DNA from: Bryopsis sp. KO-2023
Taxonomy: Eukaryota > Chlorophyta > Ulvophyceae > Bryopsidales > Bryopsidaceae
Direction of reading: 5' to 3'
Length of the DNA: 64,000 bases
Assembly (NCBI GenBank): GCA_030272585.1
Contig: BSYQ01000007.1
Span: forward strand, 6,142,001 to 6,206,000
The translations under genes and the position numbers were made by a program. Positions 4,041 to 51,071 of the stretch are shown here, piece after piece (within the stretch, counting starts at the first letter, position 1; the number at the start of each line of letters is the position of its first letter). The notes beneath the pieces are model-generated. The model did no database searches. It saw only the letters and a list, made by a program, of their open reading frames with translations, and had not been told where the DNA came from.

Positions 4041-4087
4041 CTCAAACCATTCCCAGAAACCCTCACGACCGAGTGAAGTGTGCTGAA

Positions 4088-6389: not shown

Positions 6390-6805
6390 GTCGGAGTCCA
6401 GGTCGGCATCAGATCTGCGTCGCCGATTTCATCGGAAACACCGACTTTACGCCTTTCCTACCGATCATGATCGGACGTCGCCGACTATTGCTCCGATCAA
6501 AATATGGCGCCGACTTTTTGGTCGGCCGACTATGCCGATCCCAGCTTCGAAACCAGATCGGATCGGTGTCGGGATCGGATCTGCCGACCTTTATTCGGGT
6601 CGGGCGCCGATCCCGACTAGTCGGTCCGATTTTGACACCGATTTCCGATTATCGGCCCGACTTTTGAAGATTTCAGAGTATCGGAACAGGACCGACTTTT
6701 TTCAACTTTCCGAGAATAATGGATTCGTGAAAACCGGAATCCGATCCGATCCCGTACAGGTCTGTTTATGTGCGGCCGATATTTGCCGACTGTATCCCTA
6801 GTATG
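6390..6805. repeat. Right subterminal region and tip of hAT element
   Basis: CGATC, GTCGG and CCGAC words are dense up to the tip at about 6805. The segment 6103-6389, upstream of the minus-strand gene's ATG, would be its promoter region; no clear TATA box is seen there. Confidence 0.6.
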
Positions 6806-6806
6806 G

Positions 6807-8459
6807 ATGCCACTGCCGAAGAAATCAGTAAAGCAGTTGGCTGCATCATGGCCGCCACTAGACCAGAGCTTCGCGGTAGGAATGGTTGGGGCAGGAACCT
6901 CAACAATACCGGCTCCTCCAGCAGTACAGGTCGAGGAGGGTGAAATTGTTGCTGCAGAAGCACCACCATGCACTGCAGTGGACAGCGCACCAGACGCTGA
7001 TTTCACATTCCCTCAATTGATACCTCCAAGTACAAGAGCTCAGCCTGGAGTACGCATCTCAGAACCCGACTCTGCCGATGGATCACGTAGACCCACACGA
7101 ACTAACCCAAGAGTTCTCTCCTCAGCAGAAGTGTTATATCAAATTGACCTTGAGCGTGCTAAGGCACAGGTCAGAGAAGAGAAAGGAAAAGAACCCATGC
7201 AGATCCCCACACGTACTGGAAGATTGGGACTTGGGTTAAGTGCTTTGGGAGCAAGGGTAGAAAATAATCCCTTTGCTGCACTTGGTTCATATGAGTCTAC
7301 TGGTGGACCCAGTCGAGTTCCTCGCATGCGAGGTAACTTTGGAGACCCTGGTGATGACGACCCAGATGATGATGGCGGTGATGATTACCGCGACAGACGA
7401 AACCGCCCACCTTCCCGCATTCCAGGTGCGCCTGATGGCGGAGGAGGTGGTGGCGGCGGTGGAGATGGTGGAGGCGGTGGACCTCCCGGTGGACCTCCTG
7501 GTGGAGGTGGAGGTGGAGGTGGAGGTGGCGCTGGACCAGCAGGGCCAGGACCTCCTAGGCAAGGACAGTGGTTGCCTAGCACCGTCAAGTTGCAGATGCC
7601 TCGCGCATTTAACGGAAGTGGAGAACCAAAAGCCCGTAAATGGCAAGTGCTCATGACGCGGTACTTGAGAACCTGCGGAGTGCATGAAGCACAGTGGCAA
7701 TCGATTATGGCCACTAACCTTTATGGGGCTGCCTCGGATTGGTTAACGATGCAAGAGTTGAAAATTCACCGAGGTGAAAGACCACCCTTCCGTGACTGGA
7801 TGGACTTCATGGATGGCTTAGCTACAGCTTTCGAATTCTCTAGTGATCGAGATGAAGCGTGGCGTGACCTCCACAAACTCAAGCAGACTGGAACCGTGAA
7901 ACAGTTCGTTAAAGAGTTTCAGCGGTTAGTCTTGAGGATTCCAGACCTCGAAGAGGATCACCAGTATTTGCTCTTCGTGGATGGACTTAAAAGTGAAGTT
8001 CAGAAGTTAGTCGCAGCAACGGTACCTCGAGATGTCGAGGCCGCCATCATATCCGCCGAACGATTGGAAGCCCTTGGAGTTGGAACACAAGGCCAAGGAG
8101 GGCAAACCAATCAGAGAAAGAAAGGAGTCTGGCGTGGTGGAAGAAAGAAGAAAGGCCAGAATCAGGGTCAGCAGCAGCAGAACCCTACACCACCAGCCCA
8201 AGCACCACCACAAGCTGCCGCAGGAGTGCAACAGCAGCAGCAACAGCAACAAGGACGAGGAGGAGGACGTGGTGGTGGTGGACGTGGACGCGGTGGTGGG
8301 AACCGTGGAAGAGGACAAGCCAATCAGGGAAGACAGAACCCCCAGGGGGGAGGGGGATATAATTGTTATCTTTGTGGAAAGAAGGGTCACCCTGTGAGGC
8401 AATGTCCTAGATTGGAGGAGGTGAAAAACCTCCCCGATGTAAAAAAAATGTTAAACTGA
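6807..8459 (+). CDS. gag: Gag, family 1 copy 1A, N-terminally interrupted
   Basis: This is the capsid/nucleocapsid polyprotein of a Ty3/gypsy element. The visible part starts at the MPLPKK position of the 883-residue Gag of copy 1B. It has a Gly/Pro-rich low-complexity stretch (about 7430-7540) and a retrotransposon Gag capsid-like domain (about 7570-8070). A Gln/Arg/Gly-rich basic tail follows, and one CCHC zinc knuckle near 8370 (C-x2-C-x4-H-x4-C, in YLCGKKGHPVRQC). The Gly run is longer than in 1B. The open frame extends back to 6768, but the first 13 codons come from the hAT tip. The stop overlaps the frameshift signal. Confidence 0.88.
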   Translation: MPLPKKSVKQLAASWPPLDQSFAVGMVGAGTSTIPAPPAVQVEEGEIVAAEAPPCTAVDSAPDADFTFPQLIPPSTRAQPGVRISEPDSADGSRRPTRTNPRVLSSAEVLYQIDLERAKAQVREEKGKEPMQIPTRTGRLGLGLSALGARVENNPFAALGSYESTGGPSRVPRMRGNFGDPGDDDPDDDGGDDYRDRRNRPPSRIPGAPDGGGGGGGGGDGGGGGPPGGPPGGGGGGGGGGAGPAGPGPPRQGQWLPSTVKLQMPRAFNGSGEPKARKWQVLMTRYLRTCGVHEAQWQSIMATNLYGAASDWLTMQELKIHRGERPPFRDWMDFMDGLATAFEFSSDRDEAWRDLHKLKQTGTVKQFVKEFQRLVLRIPDLEEDHQYLLFVDGLKSEVQKLVAATVPRDVEAAIISAERLEALGVGTQGQGGQTNQRKKGVWRGGRKKKGQNQGQQQQNPTPPAQAPPQAAAGVQQQQQQQQGRGGGRGGGGRGRGGGNRGRGQANQGRQNPQGGGGYNCYLCGKKGHPVRQCPRLEEVKNLPDVKKMLN

Positions 8460-8493: not shown

Positions 8494-11400
8494 CCGACGC
8501 AAACGTCGTAAGCGAAACAGAGTTCGTAGGCGGCGTAGGAAGCTAAGATCAAAAGTAGGTGCCTCGAAAAAGGTTTGTACTCACAGCGGAAAACCTGAGG
8601 AGCGGACTAGTACACCGCGTGAAGAGAGAACAGAGACACTCTCCACACCTACCCAATCGGCACATGACAACTGCGATTGGAAAAATGAACAGAAGGAAAG
8701 CACACCGGATGAGATGGACGCGCCTCATGCGTCATCTGCATCTCTTCCCTCTGTTAGTGAATCTGTGGGCTCATTGGAGTCGCAGAGTAGTCTACAGGAG
8801 TCCCTGCCTGCAGACGTAGACGATAGTGGGTCAGAAACAACCCAGCGGTCTACCACAGAGCGAGTTAATGTGTCAGAAGTTCGATCAACTTCGTCAACCA
8901 AGGGTGACACATGCCCTCTGTTAAAAATTCAAGAAGTGCCTGTGAGAGGGTACGAAGTAAAAGCACGGATCAAGACCACGGACCTTTATGCATTCATTGA
9001 TTGTGGAAGTACCGCAAACTATATCAATGATAAGGTAGCGCGTGATCTCGGGTTGTCGATTACACCAAGCTCAAAGAGAGCAATGTTGGCAAACGGAGAT
9101 ATTAAAGAACTGGCTGGCAGCTGTAACAACCTCCGAGTAAAGATAGGAGGGCTGAAGTGCAAAATGAAAGCGGATCTGTTCCCAGACCTTGGTTATGACC
9201 TAATATTGGGCATGCCTTGGTTGCAGAAAGAAAACCCCCGCATAGACTTTCAGCAAAATGAGATTTCAGTTTGCAAAAACAGCCAAGTGTTTCATCTCCC
9301 GTTGCGTCATCCAACCCAAGAGAGTATTGAACCTGAACGAAAAGTACAGTCGATACTGCAAGAAGTGCCAGTGACTGAGTGTTCAGCTAAGAGAATGATG
9401 CGTCATCTCAAAACAGAGACAGCATTCATGGTTGTAGTGCAAGAGTCTGAAGAGAAAGCTTTAGGCCAACATGAATTGCCTGACGCAATAGAGCGAACAC
9501 AGCCATTCAACACTGAGGATGAGATTGGCAAACTTATTCGTTCAGACACCCCTGCCGAAATTAAAAAGGTGGTAGAAACACACCGTGGTGTGTTCCCTCG
9601 TGATCTACCCCCAGGGATCCCTCCAAAGAGAAAAGGTCATGAGTTTAAGATAGACCTGGAGGATCCAACACCTATCCATCGTCCAATATACAAGCTTTCA
9701 CCAGCAGAGCTGGATGAAGTGAAAGCACAAGTGGACTACCTTCTGGAACAGAAGAAAATCAAACCATCCGAGTCCCCTTGGGGCGCGCCAATCCTATTTG
9801 TACCGAAAAAGGATGGAGGCTTAAGGATGTGTGTGGATTACAGGTGGATCAATAAGGTGACGGTGAAAAACCGATATCCTTTACCCCTGCCAGAAGAATT
9901 GATGGATAGAGTGTTTAAAGCCAAAGTGTTCTCAAAGTTAGATCTGCGATCAGGCTACTGGCAATTTCCAGTAAGGCCATCTGATACAGAGAAAACAGCG
10001 TTCCGCACGAGATACGGTCACTTTGAGTTTTTGGTAGCGCCTTTTGGGCTAACCAATTGCCCAGCGCAATTCCAAACTCTAGTGCAAGACCTACTCACAG
10101 AGTTTTTAGATGATTTTGTTGTTGTCTTTATTGATGACATACTCATCTTCTCTGAAAACATGGAACAGCATGCCGAACACTTAGAGAAAGTCCTGTCGCG
10201 ACTAGCAGAATATCAGCTTTTTGCTAAGGCAAGTAAAAGTGAGCTGGCTGTCGCAACAGTAGACTATCTTGGCTACCGCATTAGCGGAAGTGGGTTAGAA
10301 CCACAGGAACAAAAAGTGAAGGCAGTGAAGGAGTGGAAGGAACTACAGAGTGTTAGCGATGTACGTAGTTTCCTTGGAATGGTTTCATACTACAGGAAGT
10401 TCATTCCCCAGTTTGCACATGTTGCTGGACCACTCCATGACTTAGTGAAAAAAGACCATCCCTGGAGATGGGGACAGGTTGAGCGTGGCGCATTCAATGA
10501 ACTGAAAAAGCGTCTAAGTCAAGCTCCCGTCCTTATTTTTCCAGATGCGTCACTGCCTTACACTGTGATCACTGATGCGTCGAATGAGGCCATCGGTGCC
10601 GTGTTAACACAGGATCACGGAGAGGGGCTACAGCCAATAGCTTACCTCTCACGTAGATTCAAGCCTGCCGAGCTTAACTATGCACCATACGATAAAGAGT
10701 TGTGTGCAATATGTTATGCGATGGTGCAGTGGAGACATTATCTAGAAGGTTGTGCGGGTGGAGTAACAGTGTTCACTGACCACCAACCTCTGACGCATAT
10801 TCTGTCGCAGAGGAACCTTTCTAGAACCCAAGCAAGATGGCTTGAGGCGGGGTACCTGACTTCGATCAACCCCAAGATCTCCTATATCAAAGGCAAGGCT
10901 AATGTGTTAGCAGATGCTCTCTCCCGCAGTATTCCTAAGCCCGTGGAAACTGCGATGAACATTTCCACTTGGCAAGTGCATCAAGCAAGCCAAGACGAGT
11001 GGAAACAAGCCCTCCAAGCTGATAACTCCTTGGTGAAGATATTGCGGAAGCTTGAGAGTGGCGAGGAAGTTGAGGGATATTTCCTCAGAGAGGGAATACT
11101 CTGGACGGTCCCAAAGAGAGGATTAGTCGAGAAAGTGGTGGTTCCTAAAGGCCAGCGCAATAAGATTATGAAGGAGTGCCATGAGACACCTTCAGCAGGC
11201 CACACAGGACCAGCGCGAACAGGAGAAATCCTAGCGCGGCGATATTGGTGGAAGGGGTGGATGAATGAGTTGAAGGCATTTGTGCGCGAATGCCCTGTGT
11301 GCCAACAAATAAAGGCTGACACACAGAAGCCTATGGGCTTACTTCAACCCCTGCCAATACCTGAGCGGAAGTGGGAGCAGATTACCACTGACTTGGTGAC

Positions 11401-12454
11401 AGATCTACCAGCATCCAATGGGTTTAGTGCTGTAGCTGTCTTTGTCGATAGACTTACCAAGTTTGTGCATTTCGCCCCATGTACTAAAGAGATTACCGCT
11501 GCAGGATACGCCCAACTTTTTATCGAACATGTTTACCGCAACCATGGCCTACCTAAAGTGATTGTGTCTGATAGAGACCCTCGCTTTACCAGCAAGTTCT
11601 GGCAGACGCTTTTTAAAGCTCTGGGTACAGAGATTCGTATGAGTACAGCTTACCACCCTCAGACGGATGGGCAGAGTGAGGTTACCATACGTACTCTGGA
11701 AAATTTTCTAAGGCCATATGCTGAGAGGTATCCCCATAAGTGGGTTGAGTATTTACCTACAGCAGAGTTTGCAGCAAACAATGCAGTGAATGCGAGTACA
11801 GGGTTCGCACCTGCATACTTGATGTATGGGTACCATCCAGAAACACCAAACATTGGTGGGACGGCAACGCAATTTCAAGTGGAAGCAGTTAAGACTATGG
11901 TAGCACGGATGGCACAGGACTTAGATACCGCAAAAGCATATTACTCTAGAGCACAACACAGAATGTGTGTGAGTGCAAATAAAAAGAGGAAAGATATTGC
12001 TTTTGAGAAAGGGGATAAAGTCCTGATAAAAAGCCGTTTTATTCCGTTGGCTGCTTTGAACAAAGTGAGTCCCAAACTGCGCCGTCGATTTGTGGGTCCC
12101 TTTGAAATTGTGGAGAAAATATCAAAGGTGGCTTACAGAGTTCAACTTCCGGAAACATGGCTCATTCACCCAGTGTTTCATGTTTCTAAGTTCAAGCGTT
12201 ATCACGCCTCGAGTGATAACAGCAGGCAGATACAACCTCCAGAAGGAGAGTTGATTGGTAGCGAAGTAGAGTATGAGGTCGAAAATATCCTAAGGGCTAG
12301 AGGTAAACGCAATCGTGAATACCTAGTGCTGTGGAAAGGATACGATCTACTTGACGCTACTTGGGAACCTGAAGCTAATCTGGTTAACGCACCAGATATA
12401 CTTCGCGCATTTAAAGAGAAAGAAAGAAAAGAGTTGCAGAAAGGAAGAGAATAG
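8456..12454 (+). CDS. pol: Pol, family 1 copy 1A (PR-RT-RNase H-IN-chromodomain)
   Basis: This polyprotein carries out reverse transcription and integration. In order: a very basic Arg/Lys linker after the frameshift, aspartic protease (DCGST, Asp codon 8999), reverse transcriptase (FIDD, about 10130-10138), RNase H (TDAS near 10573) and integrase. Integrase has an HHCC finger (about 11180-11305) and a DD(35)E core (D at 11390, SDRD near 11570, E after YHPQTDGQS). A GPF/Y-like module and a C-terminal chromodomain (EYLVLWKGY, about 12300-12400) follow. The -1 frame is open from before the gag stop, so a Gag-Pol fusion is expected; the first ATG is at 8714. No stop or frameshift is seen. The chromodomain probably directs insertion toward marked chromatin. 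Confidence 0.95.
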   Translation: MTARQETASSEPGRRKRRKRNRVRRRRRKLRSKVGASKKVCTHSGKPEERTSTPREERTETLSTPTQSAHDNCDWKNEQKESTPDEMDAPHASSASLPSVSESVGSLESQSSLQESLPADVDDSGSETTQRSTTERVNVSEVRSTSSTKGDTCPLLKIQEVPVRGYEVKARIKTTDLYAFIDCGSTANYINDKVARDLGLSITPSSKRAMLANGDIKELAGSCNNLRVKIGGLKCKMKADLFPDLGYDLILGMPWLQKENPRIDFQQNEISVCKNSQVFHLPLRHPTQESIEPERKVQSILQEVPVTECSAKRMMRHLKTETAFMVVVQESEEKALGQHELPDAIERTQPFNTEDEIGKLIRSDTPAEIKKVVETHRGVFPRDLPPGIPPKRKGHEFKIDLEDPTPIHRPIYKLSPAELDEVKAQVDYLLEQKKIKPSESPWGAPILFVPKKDGGLRMCVDYRWINKVTVKNRYPLPLPEELMDRVFKAKVFSKLDLRSGYWQFPVRPSDTEKTAFRTRYGHFEFLVAPFGLTNCPAQFQTLVQDLLTEFLDDFVVVFIDDILIFSENMEQHAEHLEKVLSRLAEYQLFAKASKSELAVATVDYLGYRISGSGLEPQEQKVKAVKEWKELQSVSDVRSFLGMVSYYRKFIPQFAHVAGPLHDLVKKDHPWRWGQVERGAFNELKKRLSQAPVLIFPDASLPYTVITDASNEAIGAVLTQDHGEGLQPIAYLSRRFKPAELNYAPYDKELCAICYAMVQWRHYLEGCAGGVTVFTDHQPLTHILSQRNLSRTQARWLEAGYLTSINPKISYIKGKANVLADALSRSIPKPVETAMNISTWQVHQASQDEWKQALQADNSLVKILRKLESGEEVEGYFLREGILWTVPKRGLVEKVVVPKGQRNKIMKECHETPSAGHTGPARTGEILARRYWWKGWMNELKAFVRECPVCQQIKADTQKPMGLLQPLPIPERKWEQITTDLVTDLPASNGFSAVAVFVDRLTKFVHFAPCTKEITAAGYAQLFIEHVYRNHGLPKVIVSDRDPRFTSKFWQTLFKALGTEIRMSTAYHPQTDGQSEVTIRTLENFLRPYAERYPHKWVEYLPTAEFAANNAVNASTGFAPAYLMYGYHPETPNIGGTATQFQVEAVKTMVARMAQDLDTAKAYYSRAQHRMCVSANKKRKDIAFEKGDKVLIKSRFIPLAALNKVSPKLRRRFVGPFEIVEKISKVAYRVQLPETWLIHPVFHVSKFKRYHASSDNSRQIQPPEGELIGSEVEYEVENILRARGKRNREYLVLWKGYDLLDATWEPEANLVNAPDILRAFKEKERKELQKGRE

Positions 12455-12908: not shown

Positions 12909-14723
12909 ATGGCTGCCGACACACCCGCCGCAAGTATTGCGAGGTTGGAAGCGGAGGTAGCTCAAAAAGAAGAGGAGCTGCAGCACTTTACGTCGACCGC
13001 AGAGGAAGTGCTGCAGAACAATGAGGCCTTAACCCGGCAGCTCTCAGAGTTGAGTGACCGGACGAAAGCAGCTGAGGCTGCGAAGGAGGCAGCGGAGAAA
13101 GCCAAGGAAAAGGCGGAGGCGGAAAAGAAAGAAGCGGAGGACAAGACTAAGGTCTTGGAAGAAAAATTGGAAGCCATGAAGCTGAAGAAGCAGCGGTTCC
13201 AATCTCACATGATGGCTAACCATCGTGAGAATGACCTCCGCAAGCAAGCTCTCGGGGGAATGGTGGATCGATTTACCGCGGTAGAGGAAACGCTGCAGCG
13301 AGCTGTAGCAACCGCGTGGAGTGCAGCAGCCAACAACCTTAAGAAGGAATTGGCAGAACAAGAGCTGCAGATCGATTTGCTGGGAGAGTCCCTCAGAGAC
13401 GGCTCTGAAAAACTTCAAGTGCAGAGCGAAACAACGGACAAGATGCTGCGTTTGAACCCGGCGGTACCAGCACCACGGGTACGCGAAGAACTGGATCGCC
13501 AAGTCCAAGTTCTGTTGTCAAACGCAACACTTGATCTGGAACCGTCCAAGGACGATGATGCGGGAGGCTCAAGCAAGGGCAAGGGGAAAGGGAAAAACAA
13601 ACGCCCAAGCTCGCCGTGTAGGGATGAAGATCCACACGGAAAGAGAAGGCGAGAGGACGGTGACGATGAAGGTGGTGAGCCACCGAGGGATCGTATGCCT
13701 GGAGATGCAGCAAGAGCCAACTTGTTACTCAAGTTAAAGGCTGCCGCATTAAAGACTCCAGCACCCTCACAACCAGCACCAACAGTTCAGACTCCCGGAG
13801 ATGAGGCTACCGCAATAGCACCGGGGGAGGACTTATTCGACATGAGAGAGGAGGAGCTTTTGGACTTGGATTTTAACGAAGAAATTGACTTCGGCAGTCC
13901 ACCTCCTAGGCTCGAAGGTCCTAGTTCTGAACTGGAGGACGGGGAAATAAGGAATGATGAAGGGCCAAGCCAGGTGACAGAGGTTCAGCGTGCGGTCCAT
14001 CCACCGTTGGAGTTAGCTCCAACAGGAGCAGCACTTCGGGCTTTCCGAGAAAAGGTTAAGCTCAGGAGATTAAGGGCGGCTGCTCAGGACAAAGTGGATG
14101 CTGCACCTAGCGAAGTGAACCTGTCACGGGAGGATATCGAGGAGGCTTGCAACCCCATCACTGCGTCAGAGAAATGGCCGAAGGTCCAATATACTAACCC
14201 CAGGGACCGAGCCTTGCAAAATTACCGCGGCAACCGGCACTTTCATGAGTTGCCCATGTGCATTTGGTGCGGGAGAAGCCCAATGCAGGCAAGTGCTCAG
14301 CGGCTGACGCAGAAGAAGTATTCCGTCCTTCCTTGTGGGTATCACCTCGTGTGTGATGCTCATTGGTTGGCATACTCGATGCTGGGGCGCATCGTCACGG
14401 CGGTCCAAAAAGTCGCGGAAGTGGACAACAAGTCCATCGCCACCGTCTCCCCATTCTCTCTACCTGCCCATATGTTAAAGCTGACACGCTCGACGTTCGA
14501 AGAAATCCCTCCGTTCCCGGCTGAGCACGAGAAGTTGCCACACTGCAACATGTGTGTGAAGCGGCAACTCAAGGTGTCCGGCATCACAAGGGATCTGCCA
14601 TTCCTTAAGTCCAAGAGGGTGGCTGCCGCGTTTGATCCCTGTGTCCGGTATCGTGCAGTGCAGCAAGCGCATGCGCAGGAGCAGCGTGCTATTCAGCAAG
14701 CGCAAGCGCAGGAACAGCGTTAA
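12909..14723 (+). CDS. ORF3, family 1 copy 1A: coiled coil plus Cys/His array, function unknown
   Basis: The product is 604 residues from the ATG at 12909, in the position where env sits in some Ty3 elements. It is not Env-like: no signal peptide or membrane span is seen. The N-terminal ~190 residues are a charged Ala/Glu/Lys coiled coil. A basic KGKGKNKR patch and an acidic middle follow. The C-terminal part has C451-x2-C454, C476-x2-H479-x2-C482-x2-H485-W and C546-x2-C549. The same array occurs in the ORF3 proteins of families 2 and 3, so a zinc-binding fold is likely. The frame is open 10 codons further upstream, but ATG 12909 gives a start conserved with copy 1B. RNA or particle binding is only a guess. 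Confidence 0.85.
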   Translation: MAADTPAASIARLEAEVAQKEEELQHFTSTAEEVLQNNEALTRQLSELSDRTKAAEAAKEAAEKAKEKAEAEKKEAEDKTKVLEEKLEAMKLKKQRFQSHMMANHRENDLRKQALGGMVDRFTAVEETLQRAVATAWSAAANNLKKELAEQELQIDLLGESLRDGSEKLQVQSETTDKMLRLNPAVPAPRVREELDRQVQVLLSNATLDLEPSKDDDAGGSSKGKGKGKNKRPSSPCRDEDPHGKRRREDGDDEGGEPPRDRMPGDAARANLLLKLKAAALKTPAPSQPAPTVQTPGDEATAIAPGEDLFDMREEELLDLDFNEEIDFGSPPPRLEGPSSELEDGEIRNDEGPSQVTEVQRAVHPPLELAPTGAALRAFREKVKLRRLRAAAQDKVDAAPSEVNLSREDIEEACNPITASEKWPKVQYTNPRDRALQNYRGNRHFHELPMCIWCGRSPMQASAQRLTQKKYSVLPCGYHLVCDAHWLAYSMLGRIVTAVQKVAEVDNKSIATVSPFSLPAHMLKLTRSTFEEIPPFPAEHEKLPHCNMCVKRQLKVSGITRDLPFLKSKRVAAAFDPCVRYRAVQQAHAQEQRAIQQAQAQEQR

Positions 14724-14918: not shown

Positions 14919-15339
14919 TGTTAGTCTTTTAGCGCTATACGAGGTAGTTTGGGATAGAGCCGAGGGTGGCTGACGCATGTGGGTTCACGAGTAAGACAGA
15001 TTAGACCCAGAGTTTGGGGCATGCGTCAGCGTACTACACTTAGGGGTACTTAAGAGGCCCACTCGTTGTTTTGACATTCCATTCTAGTTGTAAGAACTCG
15101 GGATTCGTGGGATTGGTGTGTTCCCGCTTGTGTGTGTGTTTGTGTGTGTGTGTGTCTAAGTGTTTGCCTGACGCAATCACTTATCCAACCAAGTGCTCTA
15201 GTAGCGTTCACAACTGCGCTAGCTAGAGAGTTGTCTAAACCAACAAACCCCACAAGTATACTTGCGTTAGCCAGCAAGTTATCACGAATCCAACCAACAC
15301 AGCCGACCACTATTGCGTCACCCACAAGCTTCACTATCA
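14919..15339 (+). repeat. 3' LTR, family 1 copy 1A
   Basis: The LTR runs TGTTAG...CTATCA, 421 bp, preceded by a G-rich polypurine tract (about 14903-14916). It differs from the 427-bp LTRs of copy 1B by small indels around a TTTTATTTCAC segment and a TG microsatellite (15126-15154). The segment 14724-14918 between the ORF3 stop and the LTR has no gene. Confidence 0.92.
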
Positions 15340-16885: not shown

Positions 16886-17905
16886 TCAGGCTTTTCTGAG
16901 TTTCACATTTCTGGATCCTCCTGAACTTCCAGGAGGTTTCCTTTTCTTTCCTTCTGGTTCACTGTCTCCGCCTGGCTCATTGACGACCCAATCCCCATCG
17001 TAATCCGTTGGCTCTGCCTCGTCTTCGGCTGCCTCGAATTTTCTCAGGGGGCCCACGGTCCGCTTGGCCTTCAAATACACTCCCCGAGTATAATCCGACC
17101 CCAACTTGAAACCCAAGGCGCAGAGTTTGCAGGTTTCCGAGTGTAGCACCATTGGTGGCCCTGTTTCAGCTGGTACCCACATTCTCCGCCAGTCTCGTTT
17201 TTCCTCCTCTACTTCCAGACTGATACTCAGCCACACCCGATCCCGACACCCGATATTCGAGCACACCCAGTGCCGTTGGCAGTCTTCTCCGGTCGGCTGA
17301 CAGTTGCTGCTCGGGGTGCGACAAAACACGCAAGTGTGTTTTTCCCCCTCTTCGTGCTTCACTTCTCCGCTTGGTTTTCCCGACCTGGCCTCCACCATAC
17401 TCTTCAACAAGTCTACCTGGCCCTGGAGCTGTTGGTTCCGCATTTGCTCCTCCCGCAGCTTGTCTTCGACCCCGTCGAGCTTGTGGCGCATTTCCTCATC
17501 TGCCCCTTCTATCAGCAGCTTTTCCGCCTCTCTTTTCGCCGCGTCCGATGCAGTTTCCGCCATCGCCAATTTTACGCTGAGGTCCTCGTTTTCCGCCAAA
17601 TATTTCGCCCTGTCGTTGAGCAACCGGGTGCGTTCAGCCTCCCAGCTATCTCTTTCCGCCTGAAATCCCCCTTCTTCTTCCAGCTCGCCGATCTTTTGCT
17701 TGAGTTGTTCTTTTTCCTCCTCCAGCTTTGCCATTTTTTCCAGGGCCTCCTGCTCATCCCTTTCTTGGATTCTTTCCAATCTGGTTCCTTCCTTCAGGTA
17801 CTCCTCCAACATTTTGTTGATCCTTTCCGACACTCCCTCGATAGCTCCAGCATTCTTTTTAATCTCCTCCAACAGTGCTTTGACTCCTCCACCAAACTCA
17901 ACCAT
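16886..17905 (-). CDS. ORF3, family 2 copy 2A: coiled coil plus Cys/His array
   Basis: The product is 339 residues from the ATG at 17905. About 180 residues of Glu/Lys-rich coiled coil lead into a Cys/His region (CVFC, then C-x6-C, C-x2-H-x2-C-x4-C, then CKLC about 40 residues on) and a charged, basic C terminus. The array parallels ORF3 of families 1 and 3. The gap to the pol stop (18000) is 94 nt. The ORF3 frame is open into the pol 3' end, so either reinitiation or a frameshift could express it. It is intact, and very similar to the copy in 2B. Confidence 0.82.
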   Translation of the reverse strand: MVEFGGGVKALLEEIKKNAGAIEGVSERINKMLEEYLKEGTRLERIQERDEQEALEKMAKLEEEKEQLKQKIGELEEEGGFQAERDSWEAERTRLLNDRAKYLAENEDLSVKLAMAETASDAAKREAEKLLIEGADEEMRHKLDGVEDKLREEQMRNQQLQGQVDLLKSMVEARSGKPSGEVKHEEGEKHTCVFCRTPSSNCQPTGEDCQRHWVCSNIGCRDRVWLSISLEVEEEKRDWRRMWVPAETGPPMVLHSETCKLCALGFKLGSDYTRGVYLKAKRTVGPLRKFEAAEDEAEPTDYDGDWVVNEPGGDSEPEGKKRKPPGSSGGSRNVKLRKA

Positions 17906-17999: not shown

Positions 18000-20900
18000 C
18001 TAGTCCATGGAAGATTTTTGACGTAAATACTCCTGCAGCACTTGCTGCGCATTACCCAAGTGATGTGACGGGAGCCACTGGTCCTCTTCCGATCCGTATC
18101 CTTCCCAGGAAACCAAGTACTCTGTCACATTCTTCTTTTTCCGCCGTTTGGTTCGATGTGTCTTGATCTTTTCGACGATATATTCCTCGACTCCTTCCAA
18201 CACCACTGGATCTGGAGGTGGAGAAATAGCCCTGGCTGGAAACTCTTCTGATCCATCTTCAAATGCTTTTAGCTTGGAAACATGAAAAACATCATGTATT
18301 TTCCAGTGATTAGGAAGTTCCAACCTGTAAGTTACTGATGTCACAATATCAATAATTCTAAAAGGTCCACAAAACTTAGATACCAACTTCCGGCCCATCA
18401 TTGGCGGTAAAGGTAAATCAGATGTCGATAAAAAGACATACTGATTTAATGCAAAACTTGCATCCCTCCGCCCTCGGTTTGCGACAGCCCTCTGTCGCTG
18501 TTGGCTTTTCAAAATCGCTTGCCGAGCCAGCTGTAAACTTTTAGCCCAAACTGTCCACCATTCATCTGAAACTGGACCTGAGTCTAACAAATCCTGAGGG
18601 GATCGGGGATGTTGCCCATAAACCAAATAAAAAGGTGTAAAACCTGTTGATGAGTGAACGGATGAGTTATAAGCAAACTCAGCCGCCACTAATTTAGTGT
18701 CCCAATCACCCCCTATGGTCGAAATATAAATTCGCAACATGTCTCCGACTACTCGATTTGCCCTTTCAGTCATTCCATCAGTTTCAGGGTGATATCCAGA
18801 GGACATAGCTAAACGAGTCCCCGCTAATTCCCACAGTTTTCGCCAAAACTGGCCTGTAAAACGAGTATCTCGATCGGAAATAATAGCCTCTGGCAACCCA
18901 TGATGTCTGAAAATTGTATCAAAGAAAATTTCAGCTACCCCACTAGCTGTAAATGCAGTAGTGGTGGCTACCAAGTGGATCATTCGACTAAAACGGTCGA
19001 CCATAACCACTAAATAATCATGACCCTTTTGTGTCATAGGTAAAGGTCCCACAAAATCTAAACAAACTTCTTTCCAGCGTTCGTCTGGAACTGGAATTGG
19101 CTGATATAACCCCAATGGTTTTTGAGTGCTAGACTTGTTTTTCTGACAACCAACACAAGTTCTAACATATCGTTCGACATCCTCAGTGCACCTAGGCCAA
19201 TAATATCTTTTTCGAACATTTGCGACAGTTTTGTGTCGCCCAAAATGTCCAGCCTGATCGTGACATTCAGCCAACACTGTTTGTCTAATTTCTTTGTCCT
19301 TTGGAATATACCAAAACCATTTGTCTTTCAGACTATACCACAATTTTGTGCCATCCCACCTATAACGCGGATCTTTTTCACCAGCTTCCCAATTAGCTAT
19401 AACTTCTCTGCAATGTTCATCCCCTTGATACGCAAGTCTAACCTGATCCTGAAATACTACGCCTGCTCGGACTTTTGCCACAGCGTTTAATTCCATTTCC
19501 GACCTTCGACTCAATGCATCTGCAACTGTATTTTCTTTTCCACGTTTGTATTTAATCTCAAAATCAAATTCCTGTAAAGTTTCCATCCACCTAGCCTGTC
19601 TACTGGATAATTTAGGCTGCGTCTGAATATATTTCAGCGGAGCGTGGTCCGTGTGAACCACAAATTTCCTCGCCCCCAAATAATGTCGCCAAGTTTTCAA
19701 ACAATAGACTATCGCATACAGTTCTTTTTCGTGCGTCGGATAATTCCTTTCAGCTGAATTTAATTTCCGACTTTCAAACGCGGCTGGTTGTTGCCCCTGA
19801 CCTTGATCTTGCGTCAAAACTCCTCCAATAGCAAAATCCGATACGTCTGTAGTTACTTCAAAACTCAACTCCGGATCTGGAATTATTAACACAGGTGCCT
19901 CCTGCATGCTCTTCTTTAGCGTCTGAAACGCTTTCTCCTGACTTTCAGTCCACTGCCATTTAACTTCCTTCCTTGTTAGTTCATGTAACGGCGTTGCAAT
20001 CCCAGAGTATCCCTTAATAAATTTCCGATAATAATTCGCTAAACCCAAAAACGACCTAATATCCCGAACTGTCTGAGGTTGTGCCCACTCCTTAATGGCT
20101 AAAACTTTCTTAGGTACCACGGAGAGTCCCTCTCTTCCGACTATGTGTCCCAAAAATTCGACTTCTGTCATCCCCAAATCACATTTGTCCGGTGAAACGT
20201 AAAGTTTGTGTTTTTCGAGTAGCTGAAACACTTGTCTAAGATGTTCCTTATGCTCTTCCCAGTTCCGACTGTAAACTAAGATATCATCGAGATAAACTAT
20301 AACAAACTTATCCAGATGTGGTCGAAAAACATCGTTCATCACATTCATAAAAGTTGCTGGTGCATTTGTCAAACCCATTGGCATAACTGTGTATTCGTAA
20401 GATCCATATCTAGTTCGAAAAGCAGTTTTCGCCCAATCCTTTTTCGCCATCCTGACTTGATAGTATCCCGAACACAAATCTATTTTCGAGAAGTATTTTG
20501 CGCCATGAAGCTGATCTATCAGTTCATCTATCCTCGGAATCGGATAAGCGTTTTTCACCGTCACCTTATTCAATGCCCGATAATCTACACACATGCGTAG
20601 TTTCCCGTTCTTCTTCGGTACAAAAATTACCGGTGCTCCCCAAGGTGATCTACTCGGTCGAATAAACCCTTTTTCCGACATGTCTGCAATCTGAGTTTTC
20701 AGTTCTGCCATTTCCTTGATGCCTAGTCGATAAGGTGCTTTACTTTGTGGAACCGTGCCTGGTTCCAACTGGATCGTGTGTTCGATACCTCTGGAAGGGG
20801 GTATCTCACTGGGTAATTCTTCCACAAAAGTGTTAGGAAATTCCTGTCTGATTTCTGCTGCAAGTTCAGCTTGTCTGGAAACATTTTGTTCAGAGTCAGT

Positions 20901-21545
20901 TCTGTTCAAACATGTTTCAAACACCATCAGCACATACTGTTCCTCTTCCTCCTCTCCGGGGTTTACCGGAGGAATCAAATGTTCTTTCAGCCCGTCTGAA
21001 ACCACTACCTCATTTGTTCGAAAATCAACCCGGGGATTATGCTTAGCCAGCCAAGTTTTTCCCAATATAGCATCATACTTAGCAAGAGACATTTCATGAA
21101 AAATCTCCCTACTAGCAAAATCTCCAAATCTGAGAGTAGCCCTGATCTTCCCTTTAGATTCTAAGGTACTTCCCCCAGCCAGGCTAACTTTTTCTTCTTG
21201 TTCTTCTAATTCCAGCTTATTTTTCTCGCAAAATTTCCGAGCTAAAAAGCAATCAGTTGCTCCACAGTCTATTAATATCTCAGCTGCAAAACCTGAGATT
21301 TCCCCTTTCACAGTAATCAGTTGTCTAGTTCGGTTATCAGTTTCAGCCACTGCTAGAAATCCGAACTTAGTCATGTCTAAATCTGTCCCATCAAATGAAT
21401 GGACTTCTAGGTTATCTTGGTTATCAGGTCTAGTCGGCTCCTTGGACGTTTCTTCCAACGAAAAATCCCTCGAACTCCTAGAATTCCTCGAACTCGCAGG
21501 CTTCCCCTTAACTTCACATCCTGCGAGTTTACCTAACATACTCAT
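18000..21545 (-). CDS. pol: Pol, family 2 copy 2A
   Basis: The product is 1181 residues from the ATG at 21545, which overlaps the gag stop as ATGA. In order: protease (DCGATD), RT (YLDD), RNase H, integrase (HHCC finger, SDRDTRF, YHPETDG), GPF/Y module and chromodomain (EYLVSWEGY). The reading frame is complete. In RNase H the residue after the first catalytic Asp is Val (codon near 19848), whereas copy 2B has Ala. Gag of this copy is disrupted, so Pol would have to be made from a broken element or act in trans. Confidence 0.93.
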
Positions 21546-22345
21546 TTTCGCGAGGGGCAATCTCGAGCGTAATGCCCTCGACGCCCACACTTGTAACACT
21601 TCACCTCTCCGTCTGCTTTTTCTTTCTTCCAGACTGGCTTATTTCTTTCTCTCTCTTTATCACCTCGCTGTCTCTGCTGTCTCTGTTGTCGCCTTCTTCC
21701 GACGTAGTCCAACTCCATGTGATCTGATCTGCGATTTCCGCCGCCGCTGTTGCCGCCGCCGCCGCGATCTCGATTCAAGATCGAACTCCCGGATTGAGCT
21801 CCTCCCCACCTTTCCGCCACTCGAATAGCTTCATCCAAGGTCTTGGGGTTTTGGAGGTCGGTCTCGATGCCAACCCTCCCTCGCAAACCATCGACGAACC
21901 TGTGTATTTTCTCGCCCTCTGATGCGTCGGAAATATACAGCATCAGCTGTCTAAAACGATGCGTGTATTCCCGCACAGACATTCCGCCTTGGCGTAAATT
22001 CGCCCATTCTGTCCGTGTGCGGCGCAAAAAATGTGGTTCCCCGAACTGGTTTTTCAGCTCCTCACAGAAGTCCTCATACGTCGGCAAAGGTCGGCCTCCA
22101 TCAGTCTCCGACTCCTCCACTCTTGTCCTCCACCATGTCGCGGCTGGCCCTCTCAGTAGAGATCCTGCCAGGCGGAGTTTCGAGACTCCATCTTCGACGT
22201 GGGTGGCGTCAAAATGCACTCGGAGGCTGAACAACCAATCCTGGATAGGAGGGTCATTCTGCCTGCCTCCCCACAGATCAGGTCGGGCTGGCTTACTTCT
22301 CAGGTCATTACCTCGACCACCACTTCCAGCCGCCGTTCCAGCCTG
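21542..22345 (-). pseudogene. gag: Gag of 2A, 3' part (5' part at 50010-50203)
   Basis: The open frame covers the capsid-like domain and a CCHC knuckle ([14 protein letters not shown]) just before the stop. Codons match copy 2B gag from the GTAAGSGG position. The first 65 codons lie 27.7 kb away at 50010-50203, separated by element 3A with TSD GCCTG. Apart from the insertion the frame has no stop. Confidence 0.92.
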
Positions 22346-22664: not shown

Positions 22665-24329
22665 TCACTCTGTATCCGAGTCCAAGCCCTCGAGATCCCA
22701 CATCGTTCGTAGGATGTATGTCAGCCGGGATCCAAGCTCCTTGACACCGGTTTTTGAAGGGAAGGCTGCGGATTTGACCCGACACACCTGACATGGTAAG
22801 GTGAGCTGATCAGTGGCATCCGGGGGTGGAAGCGATGGGAGCGGAAGAAAATCCTCCGCACGTTTCCCGAGGCGAAGATGCTCCGCGGTCATATCGAGCG
22901 GCCGGATACTTTTATCCGCGAGCCACCGATTGATGACCCGATCCATTACATGATGATGGGGCCAGTGTGTGGGACAAACGTAGTGAGCCCCACAACTGGT
23001 TTTTATCCCGACACCATGTTGCGTTCCCGCGCAGTAGTAGCACTTCGTTCCCGCGAGTGCTGGATCGTGCGTGCCTTTGATCTTCTTGAGCGCTGCACGC
23101 AACTCTTTCGCGTCCTTCGCGCGTGTGCGTTTCTTCCCCCGCTTGGTGCTTTTCTCCGCGCCCTTTTTGTCCGCTTCCTTCACTTTTTCCGCATCCGCCT
23201 GAGTCGACGGCTCCCCTTTCTTGGTTTCAGCGGTTGTCTTTTTCTCCGCGTCCGCCTTCTTTTGTTTTCCCGCGTCCGCATGTGTTTTCTCCGCGTCCGC
23301 CTTTTGTTTTTCCGCAGCCGCCTTTTTCTCCGCATGTGTTTTCTCCGCGTCCGCCTGTTGTTTTTCCGCGGCCGCCTTTTTCTCCGCGGCTGCTTTCTTT
23401 TTCTCCGCAAGTGCTTTGAGCATTGCTGCTTTGACGAGTGCTTTTGTTTGAGCGTCCTCCGCGCTCAGCGGTGGTTTTGAACCTGTCGGTTCTTCCGCTA
23501 TGACCTCTTCGTTGTCGTCATCGTCAAGGGAACTCTGGGGTGGTTTCGTCAACTGCTTTGAGATATTCTCCGCTGCCCCGTTTATCCGGCTCAACCAGTC
23601 GTTCACTTGGTCCAAGTTGTGCGCTTTTGTAAGGTCCACGTTCGTGATGGTGATCTCCTTGACCTTATGCATGTCGACCTGATCTTTTATCCGGCCGTCT
23701 CGCACCAACTGCGCCTGCGCCTTCGCGGTATCCAGACGTACTCCCACGAGTCCGTGTGAGAAGCTCGCGAGTGACTGCGGGATGTCCATGAGGTTGGCCC
23801 GAAGCCGATTGACCTCAACTTTGGACGCGACGAGTTCTGACATCAACACACGGGCGGTCGTGCTGCTGCAGAAATCGTCTCCCTTTTCCGCCTTGGCGAG
23901 AGCGGCTTTTGTGGCTGCCAACTCTTTTTGGACCGTGACGAGGTGTTTATAGCGTTTCTCCGCCTCGCCGATGAGCTGTTTGTTCTCCTTGTGGTACCAA
24001 TCTGTATCCGCTTGAGCTTTGGTGGCTGCTTTCCGGGAGAGGGTCAGATCGGTGGTCAGCTGGGTGATTTCCTTTGCTTTCGCGGAAATTTCTTGATCCC
24101 GCGCGGAAATTGTTTGATCCTTTGCGGAATTTTCTTCCTCTTGCGCGGATAACTCTCTTTTGATGGTCTTGAGTTCCGCTTCCGCACCGCGGGCTTTCAC
24201 TTGAGCATCACTCAACTGCTGTTGAAGAGCCCGGTATCGATCCTTCCAATCCGCCTCCAGCTTAATTTTCTCCGCCGTCTGTTTCTCCTCTGTTTCCCGG
24301 AGTTTCGCCGCCAGCTCACAGATTGACAC
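22665..24329 (-). pseudogene. ORF3, family 3, N-terminally fused by deletion
   Basis: The open frame encodes up to 554 residues but has no ATG near its start. Its 5' end abuts RNase H sequence in a different frame, so the true N terminus is lost. A coiled coil rich in Ala, Lys and Glu (with repeated AEKKAAAEKQ-type units at about 23180-23410) precedes a Cys/His array: CYYC (about 23030-23046), C-x2-H-x2-C-x2-H-W (about 22962-22993) and CQVC (about 22782-22797). The spacing of the central motif is identical to family 1 ORF3. The 3' untranslated part (22541-22664) has a pyrimidine/purine-skewed AAAAG run. Confidence 0.75.
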
Positions 24330-24417: not shown

Positions 24418-24882
24418 CAGAGATAGGACTTGGGCCAAATTTTTGGTCCGACTCCGGTCCGGTCCGGTTACGGTCGGGTTACGGTCACCGTACTACGGCC
24501 GTAACTCCGTACCGTAACCGGAGTAATATGTTGTTTTTACGGTACGGAACAGGTACGGTATAACTACGGTAGGCCCTAAATCACCGTGAAGTAGCGTGGT
24601 TCAGTGCTAAAGCGTTAGGCTGCAGTCAGTAGGGTCGCGGGTTCGAATCCCCCTGGGTTCCTTTGGAATCGCGGGACCCTGCGGGGGTCACTTTCTACGG
24701 TTTACGGTTGTTACGGCCGTTACGGTCGTTACGGTCCGGTACGGAGCGGTACGGAGTGGTACGGTGCTACGGTTACGGCCGTAAAAGTACGATTTTCTGA
24801 CGAAAATTGTACTCCGGTTACGGTCCGGTTACGGTGGTTACGGTCCGGTTACGGTGACCGTAACCGTAAAGTCCTATCTCTG
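24418..24882. mobile_element. 465-bp hAT-type MITE with TTACGGTC-dense arms
   Basis: The terminal inverted repeats are perfect: CAGAGATAGGACTT at the left and its complement at the right. The flanks GGTGCGGG (24410-24417 and 24883-24890) are an 8-bp TSD, typical of hAT. The arms are filled with GGTTACGGTC and TACGGT words. A tRNA-like sequence lies in the centre. No ORF is present. It interrupts the pol of 3A. Confidence 0.92.
24592..24665 (+). other. tRNA-like sequence (A and B boxes) inside MITE
   Basis: The sequence aligns with a class I tRNA: GTTCAGTG..TAAAGC in A-box/D-arm position and GCGGGTTCGAATCCCCC as T-arm with B box. A CTGCAGT loop would read GCA if the arm formed. The anticodon and acceptor stems do not pair well, so it is a decayed or tRNA-like Pol III promoter, not a confident tRNA gene. 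Confidence 0.5.
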
Positions 24883-26990
24883 GGTGCGGGTGATCTTTTG
24901 CTTGAGTTTGCTGAAGGCTTCGCGCTGAATAGGCCCCCATGTCCACACATGATTCTTTTTGATCAGATCATGTAAGGGTCCTGCAATCCGCGCAAACTCT
25001 GGTATAAACTTACGATAGTAAGATACCATGCCCAGAAAACTTCGCACATCCCCAACTGAGCTCAACTCCTTCCATTCTTGAATAGCCCGCACTTTATCAT
25101 CCATTGGTTGCAGGCCTTTTCCTGACAAATGATATCCCAGATAATCGGTCTCGCTGACCCCCACTTCACACTTGCTCGCTTTCGCGTAGAGCTTGTGTTT
25201 GTGTAACCGCTCGAATACCTGTTTCAAATGATCGACATGTTCTTCCACTGAATTGGAAAACACCAGAATGTCGTCAATGAAAACAACCACAAAGTGGTCC
25301 AAAAACTCCCCCAACAAATCCTGCACCATAGTTTGAAACTGGGCCGGACAGTTGGACATTCCGAAGGGACAAACGAGGAACTCGAAATGCCCGTATCGTG
25401 TGCGGAATGCAGTTTTTGGGGTATCCTTTGGCCGGACTGGAAATTGCCAGTAGCCCGAGCGGAGGTCGATCTTGGTGTAGATCTTCGCTTTAGCGAGCCG
25501 GTCCATTAACTCTTCGGGAAGCGGAAGTGGATAGCGGTTTTTAATGGTGTAGTGGTTGATCCATCTGTAATCAACACACATCCGCAGTCCGCCGTCTTTC
25601 TTAGGGACAAAGAGTATGGGGGCTCCCCAGGGACTCTCTGACGGCCTAATCTTCCGTTGCTCGAGGAGATAATCCACTTGTGTCCGAACTTCATCCAATT
25701 CAGCCGGAGAAAGTTTGTACAGGGGACGGTGGATTGGGCTCATACTCTCATCCTCAAGGTCGATCTTAAATTCATGACCCTTGCGGACGGGAGGTATGCC
25801 AGGTGGGAGATCTTTTGGAAAAATGTGGCTATATTCCTCCACCACAGAGCGGATATCCGGGTGCATCTGATCATGCAGCAACTTCGGTACCTCCGTCTCT
25901 TGTGGTGTGTTGGTGCCCGCTGAAGTTTGAAGGCTATCAACGGTTACCCCCTCATACGGATATTGCATCAAGTGATTGCTATCCGTGGGGTCAGATTCAC
26001 GCACCACCACCAAGTAAGCCAAACTATCTGTGGTTTCAGTTTGCTTCTTGATGTAGCGGAATATCTTCTTGTGGGTGATGAGAGGTGTGGTTTCATTCGC
26101 AAGTTGAAGATAATCAGTCGGTCTTTCCTTTACCGGTACTGTTATCCAACCTTGACCTTGGCGAATGTTGATAGTTCCCTGTGCAAAGTCTATGGACGGG
26201 TTATTGGCGATGAGCCACGGTAACCCTAACACGATGTCATATGTGAGATGAGGAAAAACATCCGCAGAAAACTGGGTTTTGTATCCGCCCAACTGCATGT
26301 TGATGTTTCCGCATCGTTTGTCCACAGTGCAAACAGACCCGTTGGCTAATGAAACGGTCTTATTACACGAGGAGAACTCTAACCCCAAACGATCCACAAG
26401 TTTCTGCGCTACATAATTTTCCGTAGCTCCACAGTCCAAATAAGCGGAGATTGAAACTCCCCCTATCCGCCCCTTAAGCTCATACCCCATGAACTTAAGG
26501 TGGTGATTATTTACCAGTGGATTAAAACTGTCTTGAAGGTAATCCCCACCTTCAACCCCTGGTTGTTTCTTTCTGTCCGATGCCTCCCTTGCACCGGCGT
26601 CAGACGGAACCCTTGGGCTGGTCCGGTCTAAACTTTTTACACTTCCTTCCGAAGCCTGTTTCTCTCCACAAGGCGGGATAGATTCCAGGTTGCTATCTCC
26701 GGAGGAACTTCCAGAGTCTTCATGTACTGAACCAACACTTTCCGCCAACTCTCTGCCGGAAGTGCTTAGGATGACCGTACTTGAATCATCCATCCGCTCT
26801 TTGTCACCAAGTTTTGTACTCATCAGCGGATTTTCAGCCCTCTGGGCGGGATTTCTTTTTGACTCTTTCTCGGTCTTTTTATTCCCCTCTCGTTCTCTTG
26901 CTCGTGACTCCCGGAGCTTCTGACGTTTGCGATGTCTATATCTTCGGCGTCTGGCTCTTTTCCTTCTGGCCGCATGGAGCGAAGTCTCCT

Positions 26991-27309
26991 CTATGCGGCG
27001 TGATCTTTTAGCCATTTTTGAAAAGTTGGGCCTTTAGGACATTTTCCAAAGCCATGACCCACTTCACCGCAGATGTAACATGCGCCTCCGCCTCTAGCTC
27101 CGCCTTGTTGCTGCCTTCCGCCACCACCTCGATTTCGTCCGCCACCTCGTCTTCCGCCTCTTCCGCGGCCACGGCCGCCTCCACCTCTGTTGCCTCCTCC
27201 CATTTGCTGATTTTGATCTTGGGGTGGAGGTGGTGGTTGCGGTTGCTGACCCTGCATTTGCTGGTTCTGGTCAGCTTTGGGCTTGTTTTTCCAATTCCAG
27301 TTCCATCGC
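26991..27309 (-). pseudogene. gag: Gag of 3A, 3' segment with zinc knuckle
   Basis: The segment has a Gln/Pro-rich part, an Arg/Gly-rich part and a CCHC knuckle (CYICGEVGHGFGKC). It is in frame with 36568-38477 once element 2B and one ATCGC copy are removed. It overlaps the pol start by 25 nt. Confidence 0.88.
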
Positions 27310-27879
27310 TGAAACGGCTGACTTAGTAGGCGAAGATCTAGGCGGAAAACAGAGGTTACAGTCTGAGAGTTCCAGGTAGTCGCGGACTGACTGGAATGGG
27401 GTAGTTACGTGATGCTCAATGAGAGGCTGAAACGTAGTGAAAAGAGTTCGAACCAGGTTCAGTATATTCAGTGTCAGGTCTCAGATGGCTGAGAGTTTGG
27501 GTAGAGAGTCGGGAGTCAGACTGAAAGGAGCTTCAGTCTGGGTCCTTAGTCTAGAGGTTATCAAGGGTTATAAAGGGTTAGTCGGAGCTCTGGCTAGAAG
27601 GGCTGAGCTGAGAAATGATAGAGACGTTTTGGGGAGAGCTAGATGATAGCTAGTATTTGTAAGGTTAGGAGATGGGCTGGGAGTTTCTAGAAGCTCTGGG
27701 CTGAGAGTATAAAAGGCTGGGGATCGTTGTAAAGAACAAGCTTGTTGAAATAAGATTCAGTTGTGTACTCTCGTGTCTCAGACCTTTCTTACAGAACTTC
27801 TGGTCGTCTCCCAACGTGTGTGAAGAACGGGTTAAGTGACGGCTGGAAGTATTCAGCCTCAGGAAACAAATCCGTTTCA
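27310..27879 (+). repeat. 5' LTR of 2B, with TATA box
   Basis: The LTR is TGAAACG...CGTTTCA. TATAAAAG at 27708-27715 is a likely core promoter, which would put transcription start about 30 nt on. The same box occurs in the other family 2 LTRs. Confidence 0.94.
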
Positions 27880-51070: not shown

Positions 51071-51071
51071 G

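Follow-up and report, generated by a model that had tools for sequence, protein, structure and literature searches.

A 64,000-nucleotide stretch of the genome of Bryopsis sp. KO-2023, a siphonous, giant-celled green alga (Bryopsidales, Ulvophyceae), contains three families of Ty3 long terminal repeat (LTR) retrotransposons that carry a third open reading frame (ORF3) after pol. Analysis of this stretch (the window; C7:6142001-6206000 of the 91.1-Mb assembly) and of the rest of the assembly suggests that ORF3 encodes a transposon-borne accessory protein. It would start with a coiled-coil-like region, continue with a charged linker and end in a domain whose eight conserved residues are probably zinc ligands. 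The gene appears to be a module that Ty3 elements, a Helitron and a repeated element without reverse transcriptase (RT) have in common and pass between them, all in this one alga. We favour, at an even chance, the view that ORF3 is an accessory factor that works in the nucleus, on host chromatin or the silencing machinery, and is exchanged between unrelated mobile elements.

The five ORF3s of the window lie where the original prediction, an earlier reading of the DNA letters alone, had placed them (Table 1), and a six-frame regular-expression scan for the opening half of the motif, C..C-x(8-32)-C..H..C, hits exactly these five in the window. In all three families the ORF follows a Ty3 pol, which encodes protease (PR), RT, RNase H (RH), integrase (INT) and a chromodomain in families 1 and 2, and PR-RT in family 3. 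In families 1 and 2 it lies in sense orientation, 3' of pol and ahead of the 3' LTR, and most copies keep it, as is found for additional ORFs of Ty3 elements. The predicted C-terminal array C-x2-C / C-x2-H-x2-C / C-x2-C is present in all three families, and the middle motif is indeed C-x2-H-x2-C-x2-H-W in families 1 and 3 and C-x2-H-x2-C-x4-C in family 2. Genome-wide there are two signatures: type I, C-x2-C-x(12-21)-C-x(2-3)-H-x2-C-x2-H-x(47-60)-C-x2-C, in 13 groups including fam1 and fam3, and type II, C-x2-C-x(12-20)-C-x2-H-x2-C-x4-C-x(38-43)-C-x2-C, in six groups including fam2. All eight ligands are present in 20/20 domain sequences (19 groups, two sequences for fam4; both patterns were written after the alignments had been inspected), which bears out the claim that the metal-ligand pattern is what is kept. 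The eight ligands probably bind zinc.

The N-terminal coiled coil had been claimed for all three families. Our evidence is heptad periodicity in the longest stretch free of Pro and GlyGly, compared with 200 shuffles rather than assessed with a dedicated coiled-coil program; by this measure the claim stands for family 1 (matched by 4/200 shuffles) and family 3 (0/200) and is weak for family 2 (42/200). At most 6/200 shuffles match the periodicity in 8/11 ORFs, the remaining signals being those of family 2, fam4 (26/200) and fam8 (16/200). Basic runs, scored by a simple pattern, occur in 7/11 ORFs, and in fam8 and fam9 they are located inside the Cys domain. The highest 19-residue Kyte-Doolittle mean across the 11 ORFs is 1.18, so that none has the membrane span of a retroviral or errantiviral Env. 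Because this span is absent we reject an Env identity, in agreement with the original prediction.

How widespread is the domain? Genome searches with Cys/His domain queries yielded 19 groups (families 1 to 3 are fam1 to fam3; we named fam4 to fam19 and chose the grouping ourselves, and groups were set by similarity search, not by motif). The fam1 query gave at least 150 matches at 99-100% identity (the best 150 of 272 candidates). The fam2 query gave 106, of which 58 are full length at 95-100%; it also reaches fam4 (29 matches, 38-45%) and fam5 (7 matches, 36-38%), the remainder being fragments. With fam3 there were 145 matches, 51 of them at 89% or above, followed by fam6 (mostly 50-56%) and fam7 (32-36%); a fam7 query added no further group among the matches listed. 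The fam5 query brings in fam8 and fam9, which are 74% alike, and the fam8 query brings in fam10. Fam11 was found by reading the DNA adjoining fam5, and its query adds fam12 to fam19, the last of these perhaps a decayed branch near fam12. All 19 groups are multicopy among the matches listed and none resembles a single-copy host gene. Among 30 fetched loci per family, which as best hits are a biased sample, ORF3 is full length (604 aa) in 28 for family 1; in family 2 it has 339 aa in 26, 332 aa in two and fewer in two.

Two side observations concern fam11. Its NCBI gene model (409 aa) omits part of a 556-aa open frame, and an intron may therefore be present. Of the 35 weakest matches to the fam11 query (E 2e-7 to 0.07), 21 are on contig C2, which makes up 8.83 of 91.1 Mb, under 10% of the assembly; several have stop codons, and two mirrored pairs (5176184+/5770532- and 5182872+/5763611-) are palindrome-like. 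C2 could possibly contain a non-recombining or sex-linked region.

Genomic context was read for 13 groups, most copies being placed by coordinates and one copy each of the Helitron and the RT-less element read as sequence. Nine of the 13 (fam1, 2, 3, 4, 6, 7, 10, 14 and 15) sit in Ty3 elements. A same-strand Ty3 pol lies upstream of fam6, fam7, fam10, fam14 and fam15 (for fam14 and fam15 judged by BLAST similarity), and RT plus integrase lie upstream of fam4; chromodomains occur in the pol of fam1 and fam2 and, as read by eye, of fam6, fam7 and fam10. Fam8 and fam9 are found on the two sides of the helicase of a Helitron (Pfam Helitron_like_N 1e-42, PIF1 1e-51). The genome has 34 Helitron_like_N matches, of which five come from this Helitron (four frames of 1386 aa, one of 578), and at 5/5 copies fam8 and fam9 stand, by position, on either side of the Rep-helicase. 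The fam9 frame (449 aa) is open at all five places, and that of fam8 (454 aa) at four, with 367 aa at the fifth. In the Helitron copy that was read, each zinc-domain gene is accompanied by a divergent minus-strand ORF (L075:107-541(-) and L076:65-649(-)); these two ORFs have similar starts (PKKSTQAEEL/PRKSTQAEEL) and coil-like sequence, and look like another accessory gene. A second Helitron type is present in eleven copies (mostly frames of 1806-1816 aa; four on the plus and seven on the minus strand) within 127 kb at C11:3347457-3473943, with no zinc domain nearby among the matches listed.

Fam5 and fam11 form a divergent pair in the RT-less element, whose other ORFs match DUF3987 (1.4e-6) and, weakly, CxC5 (2.6e-4; 21.6 bits against a cut-off of 26.9) and a chromodomain (3.6e-4, below the cut-off). 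The CxC5-like ORF has six full copies and one relic; fam5 and fam11 are beside all six full copies, and a seventh fam5 copy, on C8, has no fam11 among the matches listed. When the 17.5-kb copy that was read was compared by tblastn with 14 proteins, nothing resembled gag, RT, integrase, Helitron or hAT, and there was one chromodomain match. The three ORFs are seen at C11:3819500-3829500 (L086, L083), where no transposase was recognised; a KDZ transposase gave no match in the genome, but the positive controls were silent too. Noncoding tandem repeats accompany both the Helitron and the RT-less element. The original prediction had suggested a new retroelement protein family. The absence of a known family is borne out, nothing above the Pfam or NCBIfam cut-offs covering the ORF3s scanned, but the scope was too narrow because type II also occurs in a Helitron and both types in the RT-less element.

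Profiles of four clusters were tested on a set made up of the 20 domains, 1031 background ORFs and 1000 shuffles. Three high-scoring background entries proved to be true members: L006, which is fam7; window_1_0_463, which is fam2 copy B; and L080, a relic. The profile of families 3, 6 and 7 finds fam1 at 2.4e-5, that of fam11-19 finds fam7 at 5.7e-6 and fam1 at 3.9e-4, and a pooled profile of both sets, built without family 1, finds fam1 at E 1.7e-10. Below E 1 the fam11-19 profile hits no background ORF other than known members, although pol ORFs were included. Because the cluster profiles cross-find members in this way, we treat type I, on sequence similarity, as one family. A single fam11 domain query reaches none of fam1, 3, 6 or 7 genome-wide (137/137 candidates scored), whereas the profiles do. 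Also genome-wide, the fam11 query reaches the Ty3 groups fam14 (5e-17) and fam15 (1.5e-16), and the Helitron domain reaches Ty3 fam4 at 7e-9. Type II is coherent genome-wide at E <=2e-5 except for fam10, which fam8 finds at 0.012-0.046. Between the types, the type II profile finds fam3 at E 1.2e-4 (best decoy 0.5) and the profile of fam1, 3, 6 and 7 finds fam5 at E 3.6e-4 (best decoy 0.14). Of the shared ancestry proposed for the three window families, the part joining families 1 and 3 holds and the link to family 2 is not established.

Has the module moved between elements? We compared the available pol pieces with the ORF3 domain in eight Ty3 families, pairwise rather than by tree. Fam6 and fam7 are 74% identical in the integrase region and 34% in the domain, so the rate of change is far higher in ORF3 than in pol. 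Between fam2 and fam10, identity in pol is 53% (795 bits, 734 aa), while the domains score 18.5 bits. By contrast, fam2 and fam4 have integrases that are 27% identical (77.8 bits, 277 aa) and domains that are 38.5% identical (69.7 bits, 96 aa); the domains are closer than the integrases predict, which indicates module exchange. Such incongruence is not readily given by vertical descent alone.

Selection has acted to keep the protein. The ratio of nonsynonymous to synonymous substitution rates (dN/dS) at kappa 3 is 0.25 in family 1 (28 copies; 55 nonsynonymous, 89 synonymous) and 0.13 in family 2 (26 copies; 13 and 37), well below 1 and indicative of purifying selection. Each variant column was counted once against the majority codon, and 2/30 loci of family 1 and 4/30 of family 2 were dropped for length. 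Because the copies are best hits to the domain protein (the family 1 domain has 0 nonsynonymous changes by construction), the values outside the searched domain, 0.32 and 0.17, are fairer. Low dN/dS together with the many near-identical copies rules out a chance ORF.

The type I domain has a confident predicted fold. For the fam11 domain, AlphaFold2 with an alignment of 13 type I rows gave a beta hairpin and four helices, one of them starting directly after the sixth ligand (mean predicted local distance difference test score, pLDDT, 89.6; predicted template modelling score, pTM, 0.82). Foldseek found no match to this model in PDB (best E 3.8), and Foldseek with VIA-align on PDB and BFVD gave nothing credible, which does not imply a novel fold. 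Sequence profiles found no relative among solved structures (best E 0.07): two lentiviral integrase chains at E 0.07-0.1, which would point to the integrase zinc domain, and a RacGAP chain at E 0.6 for type II were taken as chance; against the integrase link, the fam11-19 profile had left the pol ORFs of the background unmatched below E 1. Matches under the Pfam and NCBIfam cut-offs involved coil families, various zinc models and, across ligands 1 to 5 or 6, models of the RING class. Searches for homologues elsewhere gave 0/269 candidates at E 0.01 for the fam1 region, 0/21 at E 0.1 for fam4, and 1/32 for fam11, this one being the 'hypothetical protein' of Bryopsis sp. KO-2023 itself. They support absence elsewhere weakly because a word-based search misses distant relatives, and those with fam1 and fam4 missed the alga's own proteins too. 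Judged by titles and abstract openings, no work on Bryopsis transposons or the ORF3 domain was among the literature matches listed.

Several known systems resemble ORF3 in part. Extra conserved domains in LTR elements have been called a rare event (PMC9289625). The plant mobile domain (PMD) is an accessory domain common to Gypsy LTR elements and Mutator-like (MULE) DNA transposons, and its host relatives MAIL1 and MAIN act in silencing (PMC5418596). However, no ORF3 scanned has a Pfam PMD match, no host copy was seen in Bryopsis, and the Bryopsis domain is Cys/His based and also Helitron-borne. VANC of the Arabidopsis VANDAL elements is likewise a transposon-encoded accessory protein with a conserved domain and a highly variable remainder (PMC5735166), and noncoding tandem repeats, the usual VANC targets, occur in some Bryopsis carriers. 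VANC differs in having DUF1985 and DUF287 (PMC5735166), neither of which gave a Pfam-A match in the Bryopsis ORF3s scanned. VANC proteins induce sequence-specific loss of DNA methylation. Additional ORFs of plant LTR elements also lie in sense between pol and the 3' LTR and are kept by most copies, but the sense ones are env-like, and that review mentions neither zinc, coiled nor algae (PMC7264820). Fanzor proteins form one family across several DNA transposon superfamilies, including Helitron; their TnpB-like motif includes a C4 finger and RD, LTR elements are not named in the abstract (PMC3627910), and the Bryopsis ORF3s gave no Pfam match of this kind. The CxC clusters of KDZ transposons are comparable as Cys-cluster proteins of large transposons, and the RT-less carrier has its weak CxC5 match, but the ORF3 domains themselves have none to CxC.

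What might such a protein do? Helitrons have no capsid, particles, RT or LTRs, and because a Helitron carries the gene, a role at host chromatin, in silencing, in nuclear access or in transcription is to be expected, rather than a part in building particles, reverse-transcribing RNA or entering cells. A coil plus a zinc domain, basic runs and the lack of a membrane span would fit a nuclear oligomer; that the protein oligomerises, that it works in the nucleus and that it targets silencing or chromatin are alike inferences. In the nucleus the protein may act on host chromatin or silencing, keeping the element expressed or aiming it. Cytosine-5 DNA methyltransferase is matched in fragments at two host loci, one of which has in-frame stops; the host may thus be able to silence by methylation. 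We also entertain, tentatively and as the less probable proposition, that types I and II are one ancient family circulating among the Ty3 elements, Helitrons and RT-less element of Bryopsidales, a counter-silencing module swapped between classes as host defence adapts.

A number of points tell against this account. No DNA-binding signature was recognised in the ORF3 proteins, and family 1 has no large tandem array beside ORF3. Helitrons capture genes, so the Helitron copies could be passengers. That the two types descend from one ancestor is suggested on sequence grounds but unproven: with the pooled type I profile no type II member scores under E 0.41, hhalign of type I against type II gives a probability of 4% (E 0.011), and the AlphaFold2 type II model (nine rows) is poor, with a pLDDT of 39.8. 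The contexts cover 13/19 groups, all but fam12, 13, 16, 17, 18 and 19, and the dN/dS values are those of families 1 and 2 only.

One rival reading is that the domain is a highly diverged RING-like cross-brace. The protein would then be a coiled-coil E3 ubiquitin ligase, like Bre1/RNF20-40 or the TRIM proteins, that removes or modifies a host silencing factor, which would be one way to achieve chromatin or silencing control. Bre1/RNF20 is laid out as a coiled-coil E3 ligase, and the order C-C-C-H-C-(C/H)-C-C seen in 20/20 ORF3 domains is that of RINGs, with the reservation that our patterns were set after alignment. A C-P-x-C end in fam11 to fam19, the predicted helix after the sixth ligand and weak Pfam matches to RING_XB3 (0.0022, 2/8 type II), zf-RING_5 (0.057, 2/13 type I) and Prok-RING_4 (0.038, 1/13) point the same way. 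Yet the RING-class matches are all under curated cut-offs (best E 0.0023, 18.4 bits against a cut-off of 50), those with a range shown end after ligand 5 or 6, short of the last CxxC, and other zinc models match equally weakly (Zn_Tnp_IS91 0.013, Zn_ribbon_8 0.1). Moreover, the 47-60 residues between ligands 6 and 7 in type I exceed the shorter loop of usual RINGs, and Foldseek gave no PDB match. We therefore think a RING-like ligase rather unlikely.

A chromatin-reading or target-choice factor that steers insertion, as a complement to the pol chromodomain, is in our view unlikely as well. Zinc domain plus coil is a common layout of chromatin readers, and five of the Ty3 groups have pol chromodomains, with a weak one in the RT-less element; however, the Helitron carrier has no integrase, and the fam4 integrase ORF showed no chromodomain, yet fam4 has ORF3. 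It is quite improbable that ORF3 serves the retroelement cycle, as an Env-like or accessory gag product acting in RNA packaging, particle maturation, nuclear import or entry. Its location between pol and the 3' LTR is a frequent site of plant additional ORFs (PMC7264820), but the domain also occurs in the Helitron and the RT-less element, a membrane span is absent, and gag has a CCHC knuckle of its own. As to a captured host gene that travels as a passenger without function for the elements, gene capture by Helitrons is documented (PMC4289320, PMC2575219). Nevertheless, dN/dS of 0.13-0.25 over 26-28 copies, the multicopy state of all 19 groups and the keeping of the ORF across deeply diverged pol lineages make this very improbable.

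Table 1. Coordinates of ORF3s, Cys/His domains and associated element features in the window
Feature	Position	Strand	Remarks
Family 1 copy A third ORF	12909..14723	+	604 aa from ATG; coiled-coil-like region, charged low-complexity middle, zinc-type domain
Family 1 copy A type I Cys/His domain	14259..14555	+	C-x2-C-x21-C-x2-H-x2-C-x2-H-x60-C-x2-C
Family 1 copy A pol	8714..12454	+	PR, RT, RNase H, integrase, SH3, chromodomain
Family 1 copy A gag	6768..8459	+	CCHC knuckle (motif read by eye)
Family 1 copy A 3' LTR, aligned part	14919..15339	+	
Family 1 copy B third ORF	39100..40914	-	604 aa from ATG
Family 1 copy B type I Cys/His domain	39268..39564	-	
Family 1 copy B pol	41364..45104	-	inverted copy of copy A
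Family 1 copy B 3' LTR	38478..38904	-	100% identity with 5' LTR, 427 bp
Family 1 copy B 5' LTR	48159..48585	-	
Family 2 copy A third ORF	16886..17905	-	339 aa
Family 2 copy A type II Cys/His domain	17120..17332	-	C-x2-C-x13-C-x2-H-x2-C-x4-C-x38-C-x2-C
Family 2 copy A pol	18000..21599	-	PR-RT-RH-INT-chromodomain
Family 2 copy B third ORF	33436..34455	+	339 aa
Family 2 copy B type II Cys/His domain	34009..34221	+	
Family 2 copy B pol	29742..33341	+	inverted copy of copy A
Family 2 copy B 5' LTR	27310..27879	+	99.8% identity with 3' LTR, 570 bp
Family 2 copy B 3' LTR	35998..36567	+	
Family 3 third ORF, N-terminally truncated	22665..24329	-	554 aa, no ATG at 24329
Family 3 type I Cys/His domain	22782..23042	-	
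Family 3 PR-RT part of pol	24874..27015	-	integrase missing from copy

The LTR identities of copy B in families 1 and 2 mean that both copies are young. The family 3 copy is in part a relic: its pol is split by an insert, integrase is lost and an RNase H fragment abuts the truncated ORF3, whose stop-to-stop frame has 570 aa as against 602-680 aa in 38/51 family 3 matches (at least 89% identity). Copy B of family 2 contains an insertion (34700-35723), absent from copy A, that has the near-terminal inverted sequences CATACTATGGATC/GATCCATAGTATG, many GATCGG motifs and, by eye, two opposed tRNA-like stretches, in which ARAGORN (bacterial code) found no tRNA genes; a 78-80% relative lies at about 53893-54858. 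The GATC-rich repeats after family 2 were considered as binding targets and rejected because they belong to this separate insertion, missing in copy A. Elsewhere in the window, 661-5596 holds a hAT transposase ORF (Dimer_Tnp_hAT 3.6e-14) followed by two minisatellites, with units of 62 nt (x 6.3) and 78 nt (x 5.8), and by a minus-strand 502-aa ORF (4088-5596) with no Pfam match at E 0.1. At 51069-62732, 574-bp direct repeats (99.5%), with 97% identity to the family 2 LTR, flank 11.7 kb without an ORF of 200 aa; this is probably a non-autonomous or decayed relative.

In the literature covered here we found few precedents for proteins common to RNA-copying and DNA transposons, PMD being the clearest (PMC5418596). 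The Bryopsis module provides a domain with a confident predicted fold, unmatched in the PDB search. That it is common to several element classes points to a problem that every mobile element faces. Host silencing is the simplest candidate, and the module thereby gives a sequence-based route to counter-silencing proteins in algae. If the favoured reading is true, one could test whether counter-defence genes pass between transposon classes as they do between phages.

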